Positions 9,815 to 56,772 of a stretch of 64,000 bases of DNA are shown here, piece after piece; the stretch's first letter is position 1; the number at the start of each line of letters is the position of its first letter. The DNA lies in NCBI GenBank assembly GCA_002077065.1, contig NAJO01000084.1, forward strand, positions 1-64,000, written 5' to 3'. This stretch comes from Cryoendolithus antarcticus (lineage: Eukaryota; Ascomycota; Dothideomycetes; Cladosporiales; Cladosporiaceae). The notes below the pieces were generated by a model that saw only the letters and a list, made by a program, of their open reading frames with translations, made no database searches and was not told the origin of the DNA. Made by a program: the position numbers and the translations under genes.

Positions 9815-12410
9815 GGCGCGACCGTTACCTTACTTGGAGCTCTATCGCAAGATCTAGTACGGTACGGATATGCTTCTTTCGGCATCGTAGTTAGTAACCT
9901 AGTCATAATACGCCTAATCTCACTGATTGCCACATCGCCGCTCCCTACTCTCTTCGACTCATTCGCATATGCTAGCATGTTTCCGTAATTAGTACAGCCA
10001 ATGGCTCGCAACGTAGGCGCTCTACGCTGTCTGTTTCTCGATGCCTAGCATCATCTACGTTAAGAAGGACGCTCTCACCGTTTTTCAGAATGGCACTATA
10101 GGCGACCTGTTCCTGTTCGCTACCACGCTTGCACATCGTGATACGGCTGATTTTGGTCTTGATCATGGCGAGTGATCCGCTCGGTTCGTGACTTCCAGTT
10201 GCCGACCTTCCCTGACAGCGGCAGGAGGTCACTCTCATACAAAAAGCATTCAAAGTCGGCTGATTAGGCGCCTAAGAGGACTTCGAAGTGGGGCGTCGTA
10301 GACGAATCTGCAAGTAAGCAGTTGGCCGTGCGCTCAACCGTTGCCGCGTGTTGTGAGCTCGTAGGATGCCTCAAGGCTATGTTGTGCATACAACATCTGA
10401 AGAAGACACTGCTACGTCGGCTACGATCACCTCGATCCGATACAGCGAGGAAGTACATGTACCAGGCTCCGGACTATGCTCGCGATCAAGCTGAGTGCGC
10501 TCATGCACGCGCTGCCGCCGTCAATTGGTTGATGTCATAGCAATGTCGCAATCCCGCACAGTAGCTTCGAACGAGATAGAACTTAGCTAAGTCATCTGAG
10601 TGGACGAGCTACCCAGGTCTCTATAACCTAGTATTGATTCTAGAGCGTACGACTGGCGGCATCCAAGGGTCGAGACTCGGGTTTCCGAAAGTCCGACCGA
10701 TTTTAGTAAGGATTGTGTAACGTTAGAGATGTTTTGGCTGTAATGTCATCGGAAATCGCCTGCTACTATGAGCAAAGTGGTAAGCTTAACCATAGTCTGC
10801 TAACCCACTTTGCTCGAAAGTACCCGCACACAAGTCGAATCCGAGCCACTTTATTAGGCTATCAAACGACCCACTTGCGCTATTCCTTCGCCGAGTAGAT
10901 CTCCTGTCAGCTGATCTGATCGTGTCATGAACACACAGACCGTATGCGACGCCGTCCTGCTTTTGGTCCACTTCTGCTCTGCTAGTTTGTCCGAAGAATA
11001 CTTGACATGTGACTCGGGCTCTTAGGTCAGTCGGGTCCGCTTGGCAGATGTGTGTGTCCATGATGAGCCACTCGAGTCACTTTCGAGGGCCAAAAGACGG
11101 TTACAACCACAAGTTGTGTAATTGTCTCGGTGGGAGTCGGGCTACGGCGTTGTTAGGTGGAGTAAGGTCTAAAGGTCTATTCACCGGTCATTGAATCTGT
11201 TCTATACCATCATTAGGATCCGGAGGAATTCGGTGTATTGTTGACCAATCATACTCACTATACCGCGTATTGGTGGGGAGTTCAACGTCCCGTGATGATC
11301 TTGATATGCGGGTCGGAGATATAACTCGTGACACTGGAAGCTTACTCCAACGGTAGTATAGCGAGTAGTATATATAGATGAGTTGCGTGACAAGTGCAGC
11401 GTCCATAACCACACAACAGTACAAGATACTCGATCGTCCGCAATGTTTTAATGCCTGTGTCGCAAGTTGCACTACATTACGACTGTAGATGATGCTTGGT
11501 CTCCGGGCGCCGCTGCCGTCGCTAACATTCTTATCGGGTCAGATGTCTCTGTCTTCGCTGCCCTCCCGCACACTTGATCAAATCTTAGCCTTTACGAGCG
11601 AACGCGATAAATGACTCGGGGAAAGGTGGAGTGGTGCTAGTGGAGCATTGCCTAGAACAGGCGGACCCTGTCAATTACGTTGGTCTATAAGACAAGAGCG
11701 GTAGCTTGCTATGCAGCAAGAGCATTAGTGTTATGAACAAGACATAGTAATAGTGCCAGGAATTGTCGACCCGCGACGCCTGCTACTCACTATACTATAG
11801 CACTAGGCAGAGCGCGCTGCTTACTCAAGTGCCATGGTGAAGTGGGCAGGTGGTTACCGAATGTCTGCTTGCATCAAAGGGCCATGAATCCCATTTCCTA
11901 TACACGTAAGACATGACCCGGTCAAGTGGATTGTTCGTTGTCTAGGTAGCTCAGGTGGTGCATCTTCTACCTCGTCCGTACACTTACGTTCGCCATGAAG
12001 AGATCAAGTTACCTGTCGTTCCAGCGCTTACCAATTATTTATTGCCTCTTAGGCAAGCTCGGGAGTATACATCTATTCAGTGTAGATGGGAGGTAGGCCA
12101 AGAGACGTGTAAGCACTTCATCGTGTACCAAGAATGACTAAGAAGGTGCCACTACCCGCATCACCGATGTCGGACCCGAGTATACTTGTGTGCACCCGAG
12201 AGTCATCAATGTTCACTTATAGTGTACCCGCGTAGCGGCAAATATGATGGCATTCCATGCAACGCTACTAACTTAGCTACAGGGCTAAACCGGGACCGTA
12301 TGCCATGGGAAAGGTAGACAAACCTAATGCACACCTGCAGGGTTCATTTGTTGTGCCACCCGAGAAACGATGCACTGAAAGCTGTGGTACACAACCGCTT
12401 GAACGCTCGC
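9815..12410. other. Gene-poor stretch, nothing supported
   Basis: Only short overlapping frames. None carries a recognisable motif or a convincing intron. Confidence 0.45.
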
Positions 12411-34240: not shown

Positions 34241-34700
34241 GTAACGTCCATCCCTGCGTCGCGAGACACCCTATGTAACGAGACACTTTCACTCGCTTGA
34301 TCTCTCAACCTCTTTCTCGCAAAGCTGTCCATATGCCACCCATCTATTGCGGTTCCGACTCTATTCCCCCACAAGGCCAAGGATGCGCGACAGGACTGTT
34401 TGTAGTGCTGCTGTTGCTGTCAAGCGATTCGTCCGCGCCGACTCTTTCCGCCCTGACTCTTCGCCCTACCTGAGGACGGGCAGGCGCGCAGGTGAGGTCG
34501 AAAGTAGGTTCGTTAGGTCCGTTGCGGCTGTCGGAACAGCATTTTCATATATGCGTGAAGGCTGTAGCAACAAGCAACTGGCGCTGAGCCGTTTAACGCG
34601 TCTGAAGGGGCTGTTGGAGGGGTAGGCTCCGGCTTGGTCGGCTGCGGCCGTTGCTAAGAGAGGCCGATGTCGCTCAGTCGCTCGTGTCTGATTGAGTCGA
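34241..34700 (+). repeat. Long terminal inverted repeat, left arm
   Basis: Starts GTAACGTCCATCC at 34241 and continues GCGTCGCGAGACACCC. About 45 of the first 46 bases match the inverted right arm ending at 39691. Homology resumes in patches further in: around 34490-34527 about 36 of 38 bases match 39405-39442 inverted, and 34635-34695 matches 39236-39300 inverted. A TA dinucleotide at the outer edge could be a target-site duplication. Confidence 0.85.
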
Positions 34701-35023
34701 TGCCACAGCAACGCTGTGCACCTCGTGATATTGGCGCTCTTCCATCAGATAGCACTCGGCGAAGTATTCATGAATGCTTTCGGCTCTGTCGCTCATAAAA
34801 CATAATGTCTTTGATTATACAGTATTTTTATCATGTTAGAGCATGCTGTGCTTTTGAAGAGAATTACGGAGCATCAGTTAATGAATCGTGGTGGCGCTGT
34901 CGCTGGCAAAGCTGTCTCACTCAAGTCTGAACAACTTCGCACAGGCTGTAAAGTGGATGTTCTTTCACCTAGGTTACAATTTGGCAATGATCGTAGACAT
35001 CAATACAAAGATGTACGTATAAC

Positions 35024-38000
35024 TCATATCGAGATCAATGCTCGATGGTCAGCTGCTGCATCCATCAGCATCTGCACCACCTTCTCGTGGCCTCGTTTTG
35101 ATGCCGCCTGCAGTGCATTGCCACCTCGTCCTCCCTGAGCGTTGACGTCTGCCCTTGCATCTAACAGCATCTGCACCACCTTCTCGTGGCCTCCATATGA
35201 TGCCGCCTGCAGCGCATTGCCGTATTGTCCTCCCTGAGCATTGACGTCTGCTCCTGCATCCATCAGCATCTGCACCACCTTCTCGTCGCCTCCAGCTGAT
35301 GCCGCCTGCAGCGCATTGCCGTATTGTCCTCCTTGAGCGTTGATATCTTCTCCTCCATCTATCAGCATATGCACCACCTTCTCGTGGCCTTGTTCTGATG
35401 CCGCCTGTAGCGCATTGCCAAAATCTCCTCCCTGAGCGTTGACGTCTGCTCCAGCATCCATCAGCATCTGCACCACCTTCTCGTGGCCTCCATATGAGGC
35501 TGCCGTTAGCGCATTGCCAAGAAATCTTCCCTGAGCATTGACGTTTGCTCCTGCATCCATCAGCATCTGCACCACCTTCTCGTGGCCTTCGAAGGATGCC
35601 GCCTGCAGCGCATTGCCATAGTGTCCTCGCTGAGCGTTGACATCTGCTCCTGCGTCCATCAGCATCTGCACCACCTTCTCGTGGCCTTCGAAGGATGCCG
35701 CCTGCAGCGCATTGGCGCATTGTCCTCCCTGAGCGTTGACATCTGCTCCTACGTCCATCAGCATCTGCACCACCTTCTCGTGGCCTCCTTCTGATGCCGC
35801 CTGGAGCGCATTGCCGTATTGTCCTCCTCCCTTAGCCTTAGGGTCTGCTCCTGCATCCATCAGCATCTGCACCACCTTCTCGTGGCCTCCTCGTGATGCC
35901 GCCACCAGCGCATTGCCATAGTGTCCTCGCTGAGCGTTGACATCTGCTCCTGCGTCCATCAGCATCTGCACCACCTTCTCGTGGCCTCCTCGTGATGCCG
36001 CCTGTAGCGCATTGCCGTATTGTCCTCCTCCCTTAGCCTTAGGGTCTGCTCCTGCATCCATCAGCATCTGCACCACCTTCTCGTGGCCTCCTCGTGATGC
36101 CGCCTGCAGCGCATTGCCGTATTGTCCTCCCTGAGCATTGACGTCTGCTCCTGCATCCATCAGCATCTGCACCACCTTCTCGTCGCCTCCAGCTGATGCC
36201 GCCTGCAGCGCATTGCCAAAATCTCCTCCCTGAGCGTTGACGTCTGCTCCAGCATCCATCAGCATCTGCACCACCTTCTCGTAGCCTCCATATGATGCCG
36301 CCTGCAGCGCATTGCCATATATTCCGCCCTGAGCATTGATATCTGCTCCTGCACTTAGCAATCCTTGCACTGCTGTTTCGATGCTTAGTAGACTAGCATA
36401 ATACAGTGCAGTCCCAATGGTCCCTTCTGGTGTCTCGAATGACCCTTTCCATAATTGATCAGGGCTGTGCACGAGGAGCCACTCGCGCTTCATGACCTCA
36501 GAAGTAAGAAGGGACAACTCTCGAGTGCTACCGCTACATTGCTGTAGCGATGCGTGATAAGCCCATGACTTGGCAGCATATGCTAGCAGTGGAAATGCTG
36601 CAAGATCCTGCTTAGTTGAGGTCTTTCGAGAAGAACTGCTGTAATGTACAAGGTACACAAGGCAGCTCTGCGTCAGAAACCTATGTTCCTTGTTAGGGTC
36701 GAGATGGAAAGCCTTCGCATCGCTCGCCAGTATTCGTGATGACTCCAGGTACTCTTTGACGGAGAAATGAGCTAGTCTGACTTTGCTATCCTTGTGGATC
36801 CGTTGACCTCCCTCCGTCACGCTGAGTTCGCCTTTGCTATCATCTAAGGCATCTGATCTTGCAGTCTCGTCGTCTATGTCTCCATTATCAGCTCCCCCTA
36901 CCATAACAAGGCCGGCGAGTATCTCGAGTGTGTCTCCCCAGCCGCCCCGGTTTTCAACGTCCACAATCCCGTCCGCAGTCTGATCGTCGGTGGGATCGAC
37001 AATACTCGCTTCGGCAAGCTCGCCAAGGCTTGGGGGCGACTGTGCGTAGGCCAGCCATCGGAGGAACGTGAATGCATACGGGCGGTCGTCTTGGTCGATG
37101 TTATTCAGCATGCGCTCGTACGTTTCGTCCAAGTCCTTGGGCAGGGTGAGCAGCGCGGCCTCGACCGATTTCGGCCTAGTCGACTTGGATTTCTTTAGCG
37201 TTTGTAGCTGGCAATAGACCCATCTGAACCTTTGCGAGAGGAACATGTCAACATATGGCCGTCCTATAGAATACATCGCGTGACTCACATTCCATCTGCT
37301 CTCTGTAAGAGCGTCTTTTCGATCAATGTCTTTGTCGGGGGGTCTAGCTGAGAAAGCTTATGGTCACGTGACAGCTGTGTCGAGACATATGTCTGTATAT
37401 CAGCATTCACTGTCTGGGCCGCAATAAACATTGAATGAGCGCCAGAGTTTTCCATAAGAGAGCGGACATCTGGCACGTCTCGACTTGTCACAAGCATTCG
37501 CACGTTTGGTGCTTGTTCTAAGAGCTGCCCTATACCATTCAGCGCGTTCTGCCGCACTCCGTCGCTTTCAGGACATTCATCGAGTGCGTCCAGGTGAAGG
37601 TAAACTTGATCATACGATGCAAGTGAGGATAACAGGATCTTTTGTAACTCATCTGGTCCTGGCAGCCTTCGCTCGGCTTTCTCATACGCTTGGCGGAGCA
37701 TTGACAGACCGGGCTCTCTCCGGCCAAGTTGTACAACTAGCGAAACGAGGATGTTCTGATACGTCTGCTTGTGATTGTCCGAGAAGGAAAAGTAGAAGAT
37801 TGCATATCCAACGTTGCTTGCGTTCTGGCAGTGCGTGCGGATGTCCTCGATAGCTGTAGAGCAGAGAACGGTCTTACCACATCCAGCCTTTCCGTGTACC
37901 CAAAAAACCCTTGTCGACCTATACTTCCACGCCAGGTATTTGTCGTGGCGAAGCAGCCAGGCGCCAGTCTGAGGCTCATGCCGCTGGCGTGCCGACTCAT

Positions 38001-38823
38001 GGTTTGTCCACGGATCAGGTGGTGAGAGCCAGTCAGCAATTTCTCTATACTGCTTAGCATGCTGTATGGCTAGGTTGTCCCGCTGATGAATTGCCGCCAT
38101 AAGGCGCTGTCTTGCTCCCGCATGTTTCTCGCCATAGTTTGCACCTAGTGTCACACCGAGGATGCCATACAGGGCGTACGACATGTCTTCCGGCTTTGTT
38201 GTCTTCCGGCTCTTCATCCATTTCAGGTTGTCGTCTACACTCAGGCCGGCACTTGCTTCGTAATTGTATAGAACCTCCTCTGGTATCCCCGTGACCTGAG
38301 CAATCCTTTTTCCTAGGTTACATCCGATGAAAAGCCGGCATTTGTTGGAGGTGGAGTCTCCTTTATGACCGATGACTTGCCATCCCTTTGTCACAAAGAC
38401 TACTGTCTGTGGCGCTAGCAACTCCTGCAATGTCCAGCCCCTCTCGAACCACACGCTCTGTTCGAAGCTGCTGATTCCGTCGCCTGTTTTCACATCTGCA
38501 AGATATGCAAGGCATAGCTCGGCATTGTGGTACCACTCGAACATCGTGTTGATCGCCTCCGACAGCTCTGCGGCGCTCTCCTTATTTATACAGCATGTGT
38601 CCATCCATAGCCACTCGACATGAGGTATGTTGCTCTTGATGTATTCCGCAAAGGCCTTGACTTTCTGGTAGCCTTCGCCGTTCACATTGCGGAAATCTCT
38701 AACATCCTGAAACGTCGCTTCACCATCCTTCAGCCACCGGTGCGATGCTATCACATATGACGGCCTCTTCTTGTCGTCTTGGAACTCGGCGAACGTTAGG
38801 TTCTCGACGTTGAGGAGTCGCAT
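35024..38823 (-). CDS. HET-NACHT-ankyrin NLR-like receptor
   Basis: A cytoplasmic STAND-type immune or incompatibility receptor, with signal input through repeats, a nucleotide switch and a HET effector that in relatives triggers regulated cell death. Exon 1 is 38823-37289 and exon 2 is 37229-35024. The 59-nt intron (GTGAGT...GCAAAG) restores ADGMFRWVYCQL, the conserved end of the NACHT module, and gives 1246 aa. Domains: HET at about 20-150 (SYVIASHRW, WLWMDTCCINK); P-loop GKAGCGKT at 311-318; Walker B LHLDALDE at 409-416; sensor-like LVTSRD near 444-449; winged-helix/helical region to about 780; then 13 near-identical 33-34-residue ankyrin repeats to the C-terminus. Nothing is broken. It is the only gene between two long inverted repeats. 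Confidence 0.93.
35049..36345 (-). repeat. Tandem near-identical ankyrin-coding repeats
   Basis: About 13 tandem units of 99 bp (two carry an extra Gly codon, 102 bp) encode the NALQAAS-x-GGHEKVVQMLMDAGADVNAQGG pattern. The nucleotide core CTGCACCACCTTCTCGTGGC (as seen on the plus strand) recurs almost unchanged. Differences cluster at a few codons: the residue pair before GNAL and the two residues before GH/GD. Such high internal identity is the hallmark of fungal NLR sensor repeats kept similar by recombination. Confidence 0.95.
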
Positions 38824-39235
38824 TTTTGATCAACCGCGCATTTGTCTGCTAGGGGAGTGTGCCGAACTTCCAAAAAGCTCGCGTTTTGGGTGGTGAAAAT
38901 AAGCAAGAAAACACGAGCGTCGAGATAGTGGTAAAGCAAAGGCTGAGAGCTGCGCGTTAATGCGGTACAGCTTGTCGCTGCGCCCCGCTCCAAGCCACAA
39001 GAGGCGCATGCATTCTATCTGTTGTCATGAGAAACACTGGAAATTACGCTTATATGAACGTAGTGGATCCCGGTATAGAAAGGTCGAATGCAAGTTGCAA
39101 ACACAGGTGCTCTGACTTGTGCGCGACAGTATTAACTTACACACGATTTTTGATATTTACCAGAGTGCCGAGACAATCGACCCTTGCCCGCTACGTTGCG
39201 GCGGTTCAATCTTTCGCTCGACGCGCGGGCTGCTT
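38824..39235 (-). promoter_or_regulatory. NLR upstream region inside the element
   Basis: About 410 bp between the NLR start and the right inverted arm, without a gene. Whatever promoter drives the receptor must lie here or within the right arm. No clear TATA box close to the ATG. Confidence 0.3.
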
Positions 39236-39691
39236 CGATCAGAGACGAATGACCGAGCGACATCGGTCGCTCTTGGCAACGGCTATAGCCGTCCTCGTTA
39301 GAGAGTTGCTCTTCTAAGAGCCTAGTCCGACACCTGCAAGTGCTCAGCGCTAGCTGGGAAATAGCCAAAGTCTACATGCAGCCACATGCAGGGCATGTTA
39401 ACTGCCGCGACGGACCTAAGGAACCTACTTTCGACCTCATCTGCGTGCTAGTCCGTCTCTACGTGAGCTGAAGAGCTTAAGGCATAACAGACGTGGCCGA
39501 CAAACCCATTGATAGCACTACCGACATCGCGAATAGCTCCGTCGCGTGTTGTTATTCTTATAGAGCAATGAGTGCAGAATCATAAGAGACAGATCGCATA
39601 TTAGAACATCAGTAAGAGCGTAACTAAGAGGTCAAAAGCATGAGAATGTCTCGTTATATAGGGTGTCTCGCGACGCAGGGATGGACGTTAC
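39236..39691 (-). repeat. Long terminal inverted repeat, right arm
   Basis: Inverted counterpart of the left arm. The outer end reads ATGGACGTTAC at 39681-39691, preceded by TGTCTCGCGACGCAGG. Matching inner patches lie at 39405-39442 and 39236-39300. Between the patches the arms have diverged by substitutions and small indels. Confidence 0.85.
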
Positions 39692-44647: not shown

Positions 44648-45514
44648 CTACGCGGAGGGTTTATAGCACGTTACAACCCGCATAATCTCAGTATTGAGGG
44701 GGAATGTCCCAGATCTCAGTGGCTGCACCCGGTGGCCGCCGCTATAAGACCACGAAGCGTCGTCGTACGCATACGTATAGGCCTCGGGAGCTGCTTCTTT
44801 CAGTGCAGGACTTGTATTAGTACAATTACGGGGATCATTATACCAACCTCTACAGCATGTTGCGTCACTATCGAATACTGTGCAGTTGGAGAGACACGTT
44901 TGTTGGTCGCTCAAGAAACTAGTCGGTAGGTTACCTTGAAGAGTCGGCGTAATGTTACTTCGTCGATTTACGAACGGACATTCCCACTGTACGGGAGGGC
45001 TAACAATTATAGGAGGATAGCTTGTGCTAGGGAACTCCACTAGAACTGAACTAGTCAGGCCATCGATAGTGCTTACATCAACAAAGCATTTCTGCTCTCT
45101 ATCATTGAGTTTCGTGCAGGTAGCCTCGACGAGAGTCTGATTACGGGCAGCCATCGTGCCGTCGGTGTCCCACCATAAGCGCCAAATAGAGCTTGATGTG
45201 CCATTCTCGGAGGGGTTGATTGCATGATGCATGCAGATTTTGCGGATCTCGCCATGTGTCATGACAACGTCAAGTGAGGTATTACTAGCCACTGAGTCAG
45301 TTTCTAAGTCAAAGGCACTTCCGGATGTCACTTCGAATTTATGATGTATTTCAGTGTGAAGATCTGATGAGCATCGATTCTCGATCGTGAGTTCATAGTA
45401 CGAGCATGAGTCCTCTGCTTTCGAGGGTGTTCCGGCTATGTGACTATTCGGAGCTGCTTGCAATGCTTTTGCAAGGACGAGGCAGAAATAGCAGAGCTTG
45501 AGTAAAGAATCCAT
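44648..45514 (-). CDS. Secreted thaumatin-like protein
   Basis: A 288-aa extracellular protein with a signal peptide (about 1-20) and several N-glycosylation sites. The C-terminal half carries the thaumatin signature order: CLSNC, then DATCCRG, NDPRNC, and APEAYTYAYDD, matching the family's CCxG...PxxC...CPxAYSYAYDD. The Cys that normally precedes PxAY is Ala here, and the Cys after the DD motif is missing, so at least one standard disulfide is lost. The N-terminal acidic cleft residues are not obvious. Fungal members are linked to beta-glucan binding or wall remodelling (family knowledge). A TATA-like element lies about 45-50 bp upstream. Single exon. Confidence 0.78.
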   Translation of the reverse strand: MDSLLKLCYFCLVLAKALQAAPNSHIAGTPSKAEDSCSYYELTIENRCSSDLHTEIHHKFEVTSGSAFDLETDSVASNTSLDVVMTHGEIRKICMHHAINPSENGTSSSIWRLWWDTDGTMAARNQTLVEATCTKLNDREQKCFVDVSTIDGLTSSVLVEFPSTSYPPIIVSPPVQWECPFVNRRSNITPTLQGNLPTSFLSDQQTCLSNCTVFDSDATCCRGWYNDPRNCTNTSPALKEAAPEAYTYAYDDASWSYSGGHRVQPLRSGTFPLNTEIMRVVTCYKPSA

Positions 45515-55797: not shown

Positions 55798-56772
55798 TCA
55801 TACGAGTATCATGGGGTTGGAAGGTGTTGCTAAGCGAGCATGCTGCAGCCTCTGCGGAAGCGCGACTGTTGGCGCTCGAGACCTCTTCCATGTCTCTCTG
55901 AGGGCGACCATGAGGCTGTAGCGTGAGTAGATTTCTGCTCGGTGCTTCGATACATCAACGGGACTGAATCCTTCTCCGCATCTGTCGAGCACTGATGTCT
56001 GGGTACCGAAAGTATCTGCCCAGGTGGGGCTACAGTTAGAGCTGACGGACATGCGGCGCACGCCTCTGCTTGCACTGAGCATGTCCGATGCCAATGTATC
56101 CGTTGTATATTGGTTGTCAAACGAAGCGGACGGTGCTCCTCGAAGTGATTCATTCGACGAGATAAGTTGCACAAGCTTGCTAAAGATGACCGTGTAGTTC
56201 CTGTGGCCGTTGTTGTCCCAGTACTCCTGTCCATCTGCACGGAAGCAGATGCATAGTTGCAGAGTGCCACCATGTGGCATATTCGCGTGAATCAAATGAA
56301 GCGAGAATCTGAAATGATCATACTCGCGTGATCGACAGCCTAGTATTCCTGGTTCGTAAATAGCTTCAACCTCGATGTCGCTGTTCCAGTTGTCCAGTGT
56401 ATATTTTACAAGTACGTGCTTTTGGTAGCAAATGTTCTTCACTACCACGAGACCGTCCAAACTCGCTGCATTTGAGTCCCACTGCAAATGTGTCATACGT
56501 ACGATCGCCTGAACGATGTCTGGTAGCTCGATCGCAACTTCGACGGGCTCACACAACGGTGTCCATTGTGCATCATAATGATTGCGGAGGGGACAATGGT
56601 TGTCGGAGGTCGTCATCGCCCTGACTAGTTCTCTCGGTGTCTGTTCCGCAATGAAGTACGAAATTTCGTTGAGGTCATCGTTGAAGTGTACATGTTTAGT
56701 AGGCCGATCGGAATATCTGGAAGCTCCACGCGATTTGAATGTCGACTTGCCTGCCTGTGTAGGGTTCCCCAT
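55798..56772 (-). CDS. CBM21 glycogen-targeting regulatory subunit of PP1
   Basis: This subunit brings type-1 protein phosphatase to glycogen so that glycogen synthase is dephosphorylated (Gac1/PTG-like role, family knowledge). In 324 aa I see a KHVHF docking motif of the RVxF type at residues 26-30 followed by acidic residues, then a CBM21 domain at about 100-197: VVVKNICYQKHVLVKYTLDNW, EAIYE, DHFRFSL, LQLCICFRADGQEYWDNN, NYTV. These are the signature strands with the aromatic and Asn/Asp residues that bind glucan. The C-terminal third is Ser/Arg-rich and disordered. Shorter than yeast Gac1 but similar to other compact fungal members. Single exon. Confidence 0.88.
   Translation of the reverse strand: MGNPTQAGKSTFKSRGASRYSDRPTKHVHFNDDLNEISYFIAEQTPRELVRAMTTSDNHCPLRNHYDAQWTPLCEPVEVAIELPDIVQAIVRMTHLQWDSNAASLDGLVVVKNICYQKHVLVKYTLDNWNSDIEVEAIYEPGILGCRSREYDHFRFSLHLIHANMPHGGTLQLCICFRADGQEYWDNNGHRNYTVIFSKLVQLISSNESLRGAPSASFDNQYTTDTLASDMLSASRGVRRMSVSSNCSPTWADTFGTQTSVLDRCGEGFSPVDVSKHRAEIYSRYSLMVALRETWKRSRAPTVALPQRLQHARLATPSNPMILV

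Follow-up and report, generated by a model that had tools for sequence, protein, structure and literature searches.

Cryoendolithus antarcticus (Cladosporiales, Dothideomycetes) is an Antarctic endolithic black fungus, and the sets of nucleotide-binding oligomerization domain-like receptors (NLRs) of fungi differ between strains. We analyzed a window of 64 kb of C133, one of the contigs of the C. antarcticus genome (46,965,068 bases in 149 contigs, designated here by C-numbers; C133 comprises 77 kb), and report on a putative transposable unit within it that holds a complete NLR gene between two long inverted arms (Table 1). The exact limits of this unit (34244-39688; 5,445 bp) could be read from the sequence.

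The sole cargo that we recognized in the unit is one HET-NACHT-ankyrin NLR gene. The unit is overlapped by 20 open reading frames (ORFs) of at least 60 amino acids, of which the two that make up this gene were compared with Pfam; the non-gene ORFs longer than 101 amino acids all overlap the NLR gene. The ORF at 37285-38823 codes for HET and NACHT/NPHP3_N domains and that at 35024-37288 for ankyrin repeats, both on the minus strand (E-values: HET, 5e-8; NACHT, 7e-11; NPHP3_N, 4e-36; ankyrin, 3e-95). The frame change between them is an ordinary GT-AG intron, across which HET, NACHT, and ankyrin repeats are joined in one spliced protein of 1,246 amino acids that possesses a normal stop and is free of premature stops. 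The ankyrin units are arranged in tandem with a period of 99 bp. The gene reads toward the left end of the unit, and about 410 bp separate its start from the right arm. We considered and rejected a retro-copy origin of the gene, since its intron is retained.

The C. antarcticus genome encodes paralogues of this NLR on C94 (69% protein identity), C116 (56%), and C13 (54%), and no arms were seen around any of them in the 9-9.9 kb examined at each. A recent capture of the gene as a copy of a resident one was rejected because even the nearest paralogue, that on C94, is only 74% identical at the DNA level, with a synonymous divergence (dS) of 0.93. The best database relatives reach 71% in a protein search that covered chains of up to 1.75 times the query length. 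A tree was built from 59 HET-NACHT sequences, four of them from the fungus itself and 55 drawn from the 120 relatives listed; in it, the window NLR grouped with C94 and two further proteins with weak support (84/86, compared to a mark of 95/80). Comparison of the non-repeat part of the window NLR with C94 (782 codons) yielded a nonsynonymous divergence (dN) of 0.213, a dS of 0.934, and a ratio of 0.23 (0.20-0.25 in three segments); the low ratio indicates that purifying selection acted on the pair during most of the period after its split, as an average over both branches. The window NLR would be expected to act in non-self recognition and cell death. Some NLR proteins labelled Quercus suber appear to be fungal, perhaps as a result of contamination of the Q. 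suber genome.

The two arms, each of about 455 bp, are inverted and collinear, and their outer ~44 bp are almost identical. A repeat search recovered three in-register inverted blocks (34234-34305/39627-39698, 85%; 34457-34531/39401-39475, 79%; 34636-34695/39235-39294, 80%), and blastn placed the left and the right arm in one alignment of 466 columns (67% identity; E ~1e-27 to 1e-29). When scored in bins of 30 bp, identity was 100% at positions 1-30, 73% in the next bin, and 43-63% in most of the later ones, with peaks farther in (87% at positions 241-270; 70-83% at positions 391-450). Stripped of their outer 45 bp, the arms scored 91 against each other; windows drawn at random from the same 64 kb (n = 440) reached 27 at most. 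A 23-nucleotide core of the terminus matched twice in the window with up to three mismatches and not at all in 100 shuffles. The left end carries both copies of a GTnnCGAGnC motif, the second of which is altered at one base at the right end. These data bear out the initial annotation, which had described inverted arms with a near-identical outer part and a TA at each end that enclose an intact NLR gene.

Table 1. Features of the NLR-bearing unit and its borders in the 64-kb window.
Feature	Position	Strand	Basis or remark
Left TA, target dinucleotide	34242..34243		sequence; TA at 19/22 family termini
Left terminal inverted repeat	34244..34287	+	paired GTnnCGAGACAC motifs at 34258-34269 and 34275-34286, spaced 17 bp
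Left arm, subterminal region	34244..34695	+	67% identical to right arm, collinear
Inner conserved patch GAAAGTAGGTTC, left arm	34500..34511	+	arm position equal to right-arm copy
NLR exon 2	35024..37229	-	remainder of NOD region; ankyrin repeats with 99-bp period; stop at 35024
Intron, 59 bp	37230..37288	-	GTGAGT...AAAG; position common with C94 paralogue
NLR exon 1	37289..38823	-	HET and NACHT/NPHP3_N domain (NPHP3_N match 37480-37971)
Right arm, subterminal region	39235..39688	-	~430 bp 91% like solo arm C27:5109-5538
Inner conserved patch GAAAGTAGGTTC, right arm	39421..39432	-	
Right terminal inverted repeat	39645..39688	-	one base altered in second of paired motifs
Right TA	39689..39690		sequence

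Genome-wide searches support the view that these termini are the ends of a multi-copy, TA-flanked element family. A TA-free terminus pattern of 25 nucleotides gave 22 matches with up to three mismatches, 19 of which adjoin TA (the exceptions are C42:2306, C135, and C138), and its reversed control gave none; a degenerate pattern of 24 nucleotides found 50 matches in the 47-Mb genome at the same stringency and none when reversed. The segment C73:963147-963193 is 98% like the outer 46 bp of the window unit. The exact terminus pattern had no match in viral_contigs. Of 11 termini scanned, seven have both GTnnCGAGnC motifs at a spacing of 17 bp, and the other four, among them the right end of the window unit, retain one. 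This pair is likely to be a double binding site for the transposase, which fits the earlier suggestion that the ends are under constraint for transposase binding.

Several other arrangements of family termini came to our attention. At C8:8295, a second terminus-like ACGTCCATCCCT begins immediately after the TA of the first, an arrangement that would be expected had an element used the edge TA of another for its insertion. The sequences at C135:63706 and C138:58085 are 94% alike over 1.5 kb, share a variant terminus CGGTCCGTC that is preceded by TG, and contain up to 290 bp of arm resembling the window arms. C133 itself carries, just outside the window, two further family arms in inverted orientation (64607-65021, plus strand; 68260-68613, minus strand), which span ~4.0 kb end to end at a distance of 25 kb from the window unit.

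A link between these ends and a transposase, the search for which had been proposed in the initial annotation, was found through the pogo/Fot1 catalytic domain DDE_1 (PF03184), which has 42 matches in the genome. Six of them (on C4, C8, C32, C49, C136, and C138) are preceded by a family terminus that points the same way and lies 1,166-1,257 bp upstream, so that the domain lies at a fixed distance inside the terminus. The transposase frame on C136 is open over 586 codons (DDE_1, 5e-29); it has relatives of up to 76% identity, some of which carry PF03221 or 'HTH CENPB-type' names, PF03221 being absent from the C136 frame itself. We compared 33 termini together with as much as 1.5 kb of the sequence inside each; five had a transposase inside (C136:60179, C4:39352, C32:18501, C43:12849, and C48:2627), and C32:18940 reads into the transposase copy of C32:18501. 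Many of the 33 ends showed no recognized gene in the inside part examined, the frames of which were put to Pfam in part. Transposase-bearing and NLR-bearing ends have arms in common (C43 and C136:20761, 78% over 552 bp). No transposase match was found inside the window unit and no DDE_1 match is listed on C133; the terminus at C32:18501 (85% over 48 bp) is a candidate for the transposase source of the window unit. On C43, a DUF3723 frame (10630-11259) and an ankyrin-like remnant (~11200-11540) lie 1.3-2.2 kb inside a terminus that carries a cut-off transposase start.

A second group of the 33 termini is followed, from ~690 bp inwards, by an array coding for tetratricopeptide repeats (TPRs). 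One representative is an open frame of 843 codons at C120:56773-59301 with NB-ARC (2e-14) and TPR (2e-78) domains; its product corresponds to B0A48_18348 of C. antarcticus (100% identical over 98% of the query). Eight loci are at least 81% like this NB-ARC-TPR NLR in their best piece. In six of these (C120, C8, C9, C51, C4, and C61), which are all the copies where both features are visible, a distance of 636-699 bp separates the end of the match from a terminus; of the other two, the C54 contig begins inside the arm, and the 3' end on C10 is unmatched. Fourteen more diverged homologues (up to 58%) were checked for a terminus in the 2.5 kb that follow their 3' end; those on C3 and C136 have one, and the other 12 have none. 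Most copies of this NLR type contain stops or frame changes, the one on C120 being open. On C61, arms were seen at 591882 and 601173, one at either end. The sequence at C136:20761-25587 forms a second unit: it is bordered by TA on both sides, its arms measure ~630 bp and are 80% identical, and the TPR gene between them is broken; relatives of this gene at C3:16920 and C46:923132, where one end each was seen, place this second TPR type at three sites. A WD40 repeat (7e-10) in a single frame of 64 amino acids lies at the matching place at C42:2306, a terminus with TT instead of TA, and it is possible that it represents a further NLR architecture. Copies with different cargo, which the initial annotation had recommended looking for, thus exist in the form of other NLRs directly inside family termini; those on C136 and C61 are flanked by two arms. 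NLRs are not the only genes associated with the family: a pair of termini 5.0 kb apart at C130:72945-77951 encloses a HAD-hydrolase-like frame, either as a non-NLR cargo or as a neighbor.

At two of the TPR loci, C4 (C4:8600-10357) and C51 (C51:1881-4855), a gene for a HeLo domain (PF14479) is located inside family termini and divergent from the NLR gene; both genes contain stops on both contigs. The C-terminus of the C4 HeLo protein resembles the N-terminus of the C4 NLR (score 40, matched or exceeded in 21 of 20,000 shuffles) and the annotated start of the C120 NLR (score 49, matched or exceeded in none of 20,000 shuffles). This common motif may be amyloid-like and recalls the HET-S/NWD2 type. 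Beside the C120 NLR, no HeLo gene was found by tblastn over 6.5 kb. A second terminus was found neither for C120 (C120:53500-60000) nor for C4:5984 (C4:5900-12500) at up to 14 of 43 mismatches; C4:35719 may be the partner of the latter, the two arms being 83% alike over ~760 bp with other repeats between them.

The divergence of the two window arms had been taken as a sign of the age of the insertion, an argument that we now abandon. A solo arm at C27:5109-5538 is 91% like the right arm of the window unit and 68% like the left one. Since it resembles one arm so much more closely than the other, the left and right ends must have differed before the C27 and window copies parted; the divergence between the arms therefore provides no clock for the window insertion. 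The C27 arm differs from the right arm by 37 transitions and 24 transversions (the alignment of the last ~40 bp is poor); a strong excess of transitions, as left by repeat-induced point mutation (RIP), is not seen. An arm standing alone as a complete miniature inverted-repeat transposable element (MITE) had been named in the initial annotation as a finding that would speak for unrelated insertions. The C27 arm does stand alone, but no second terminus was found up to C27:14800 (at up to 13 of 43 mismatches). For the window unit, we rejected an identity as a MITE; MITEs are short and non-coding with terminal inverted repeats (TIRs) at both ends, whereas this unit measures 5.4 kb and contains a gene for 1,246 amino acids.

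We observe, then, termini with TA, arms, an intact gene, a many-copy family, transposase domains at a fixed distance, and repeated linkage to NLRs. Very probably, 34244-39688 is a non-autonomous DNA transposon of the pogo/Fot1 type (Tc1/mariner superfamily) that sits at TA with the NLR gene as its passenger, and the family to which it belongs took up NLRs repeatedly. Membership in pogo/Fot1 is indicated by TA on both sides, by TIRs in common with transposase-linked termini, and by DDE_1 with CENPB-type relatives. The earlier proposal that the NLR is the cargo of a non-autonomous, TA-targeting DNA element is hence supported by a TA-flanked family with DDE_1 and other NLRs inside its termini. 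We infer that the window unit was mobilized in trans and has transposed. A pogo/Fot1-type transposase made from another copy would bind the paired motifs at both ends, cut the unit out, and paste it at a new TA (cut-and-paste), and the NLR gene with its upstream region and intron would travel as a passenger in the place of the transposase gene. Since a transposase made elsewhere must recognize both ends, their outer ~45 bp would be kept alike. The same family would have done likewise with several different types of NLRs.

A number of observations weigh against this interpretation. Most NLR-bearing members other than the window unit are broken. Only the window's NACHT match out of 36 in the genome is known to lie between such termini (that at C3:22727 is situated 5.8 kb inside one terminus), and NACHT NLRs in general are therefore not carried by the family. 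No empty site was found, the joined flanks (600 + 600 bp) matching only their own places in a genome search that skipped very common words; nor was a second copy of the window NLR unit found in the genome. Thirty-six of the 42 DDE_1 matches are without a family terminus at the distance given above. No transposase copy with two matching ends was seen, each having one matching end; two copies are flanked by inverted termini, at a spacing of 10.4 kb for C42:8981 and 13.2 kb for C8:11863, but the C42 arms are mutually unlike. The window arms match transposase-bearing arms over the outer ~40-85 bp only.

The single copy of the unit would also suit an accidental composite, in which two separate relics of the family flank, in opposite orientation, a resident NLR gene that never moved with them. 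Solo ends such as C27:5109 exist, and the C4 stretch holds several termini together with other repeats. However, the unit lacks a transposase match inside, and the layout of terminus, arm, and NLR 3' end at 636-699 bp recurs at six sites for another NLR. Since such a recurrent layout is not expected from separate insertions, these are disfavored, and we regard a composite as unlikely.

NLRs are known as accessory cargo of Starships (PMC9815663, citing Gluck-Thaler 2022; PMC9594970; PMC12134995; here and below, our statements refer to the excerpts of these sources that were available to us), and the window NLR might belong to such an element with the inverted arms being incidental. Matches to the DUF3435 captain (PF11917) are present on C145, C148, C67, and C78, but none is on C133, a contig of only 77 kb, and the boundary of the unit consists of TA and TIRs common to the 50-copy DDE_1-linked family; this makes a Starship origin highly improbable. 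A local inverted duplication unrelated to transposition would account for the pairing of the arms and for that alone; it is already contradicted by the same termini on many other contigs, most of them beside TA and some with a transposase inside, and deserves hardly any credence. Preferring the pogo/Fot1-type transposon, we offer a tentative extension that we hold to be possible rather than probable: pogo-type 'immune-receptor carriers', a dedicated lineage of DDE elements in which the transposase was repeatedly replaced by an NLR, alone or with a HeLo cell-death partner, the cassettes multiplying and spreading as mobile units, possibly since a cassette protects or enforces the inheritance of the element.

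Other ORFs near the unit in the window include a thaumatin-family gene (44648-45514) and one with a CBM21 starch-binding domain (55798-56772).

A literature search, mostly outside subscription papers, for fungal elements of the TIR, Fot1, or pogo type with NLRs uncovered nothing closer than Starships and ToxhAT in the parts of the sources available. For the Podospora HNWD family, the corresponding excerpt describes RIP and, next to one pseudogene, the relic of a transposon; it reports no inverted repeats (PMC1805685). The family studied here shares TA ends, TIRs, and DDE_1 (PF03184) with CENPB-type relatives with the fungal pogo/Fot1 elements (Tc1/mariner, IS630-Tc1-mariner; traits in PMC7325037) but differs from them by arms of ~400-760 bp and by NLR passengers; the passages of PMC7325037 at hand make no mention of passenger genes. 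HET-S/NWD2-type pairs of NLR and HeLo proteins with a shared amyloid motif (PMC3321046) find a counterpart in the divergent TPR NLR and HeLo genes on C4 with their similar ends; unlike those pairs, the C4 pair is located inside a family terminus and recurs on C51, and the window unit is without such a partner. Should the NLR-HeLo pair be confirmed as cargo, complete cell-death cassettes would be mobile as well.

ToxhAT is likewise a fungal TIR element with host-type cargo, including an NLR-like Patatin-TPR gene, but it is a hAT-like element of 14.3 kb with eight genes and 74-bp TIRs, for which no target-site duplication was found (PMC6737239), whereas the family here sits at TA, and each unit, to the extent that it was read, holds one NLR or an NLR together with a HeLo gene. 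Starships also carry NLRs as accessory cargo but possess a tyrosine-recombinase captain and reach up to ~700 kb (PMC12134995), compared to the DDE-linked units of ~5 kb described here. Through a single helper transposase, receptors could be dispersed, and each terminus in the genome can be searched for the next NLR. From the layout of the family, a compact way for fungi to relocate and amplify NLR genes suggests itself: a DDE-linked element of ~5 kb with a single NLR, as a member of a multi-copy family, would be a simple means for copying and swapping these receptors, beside the giant Starships and ToxhAT.

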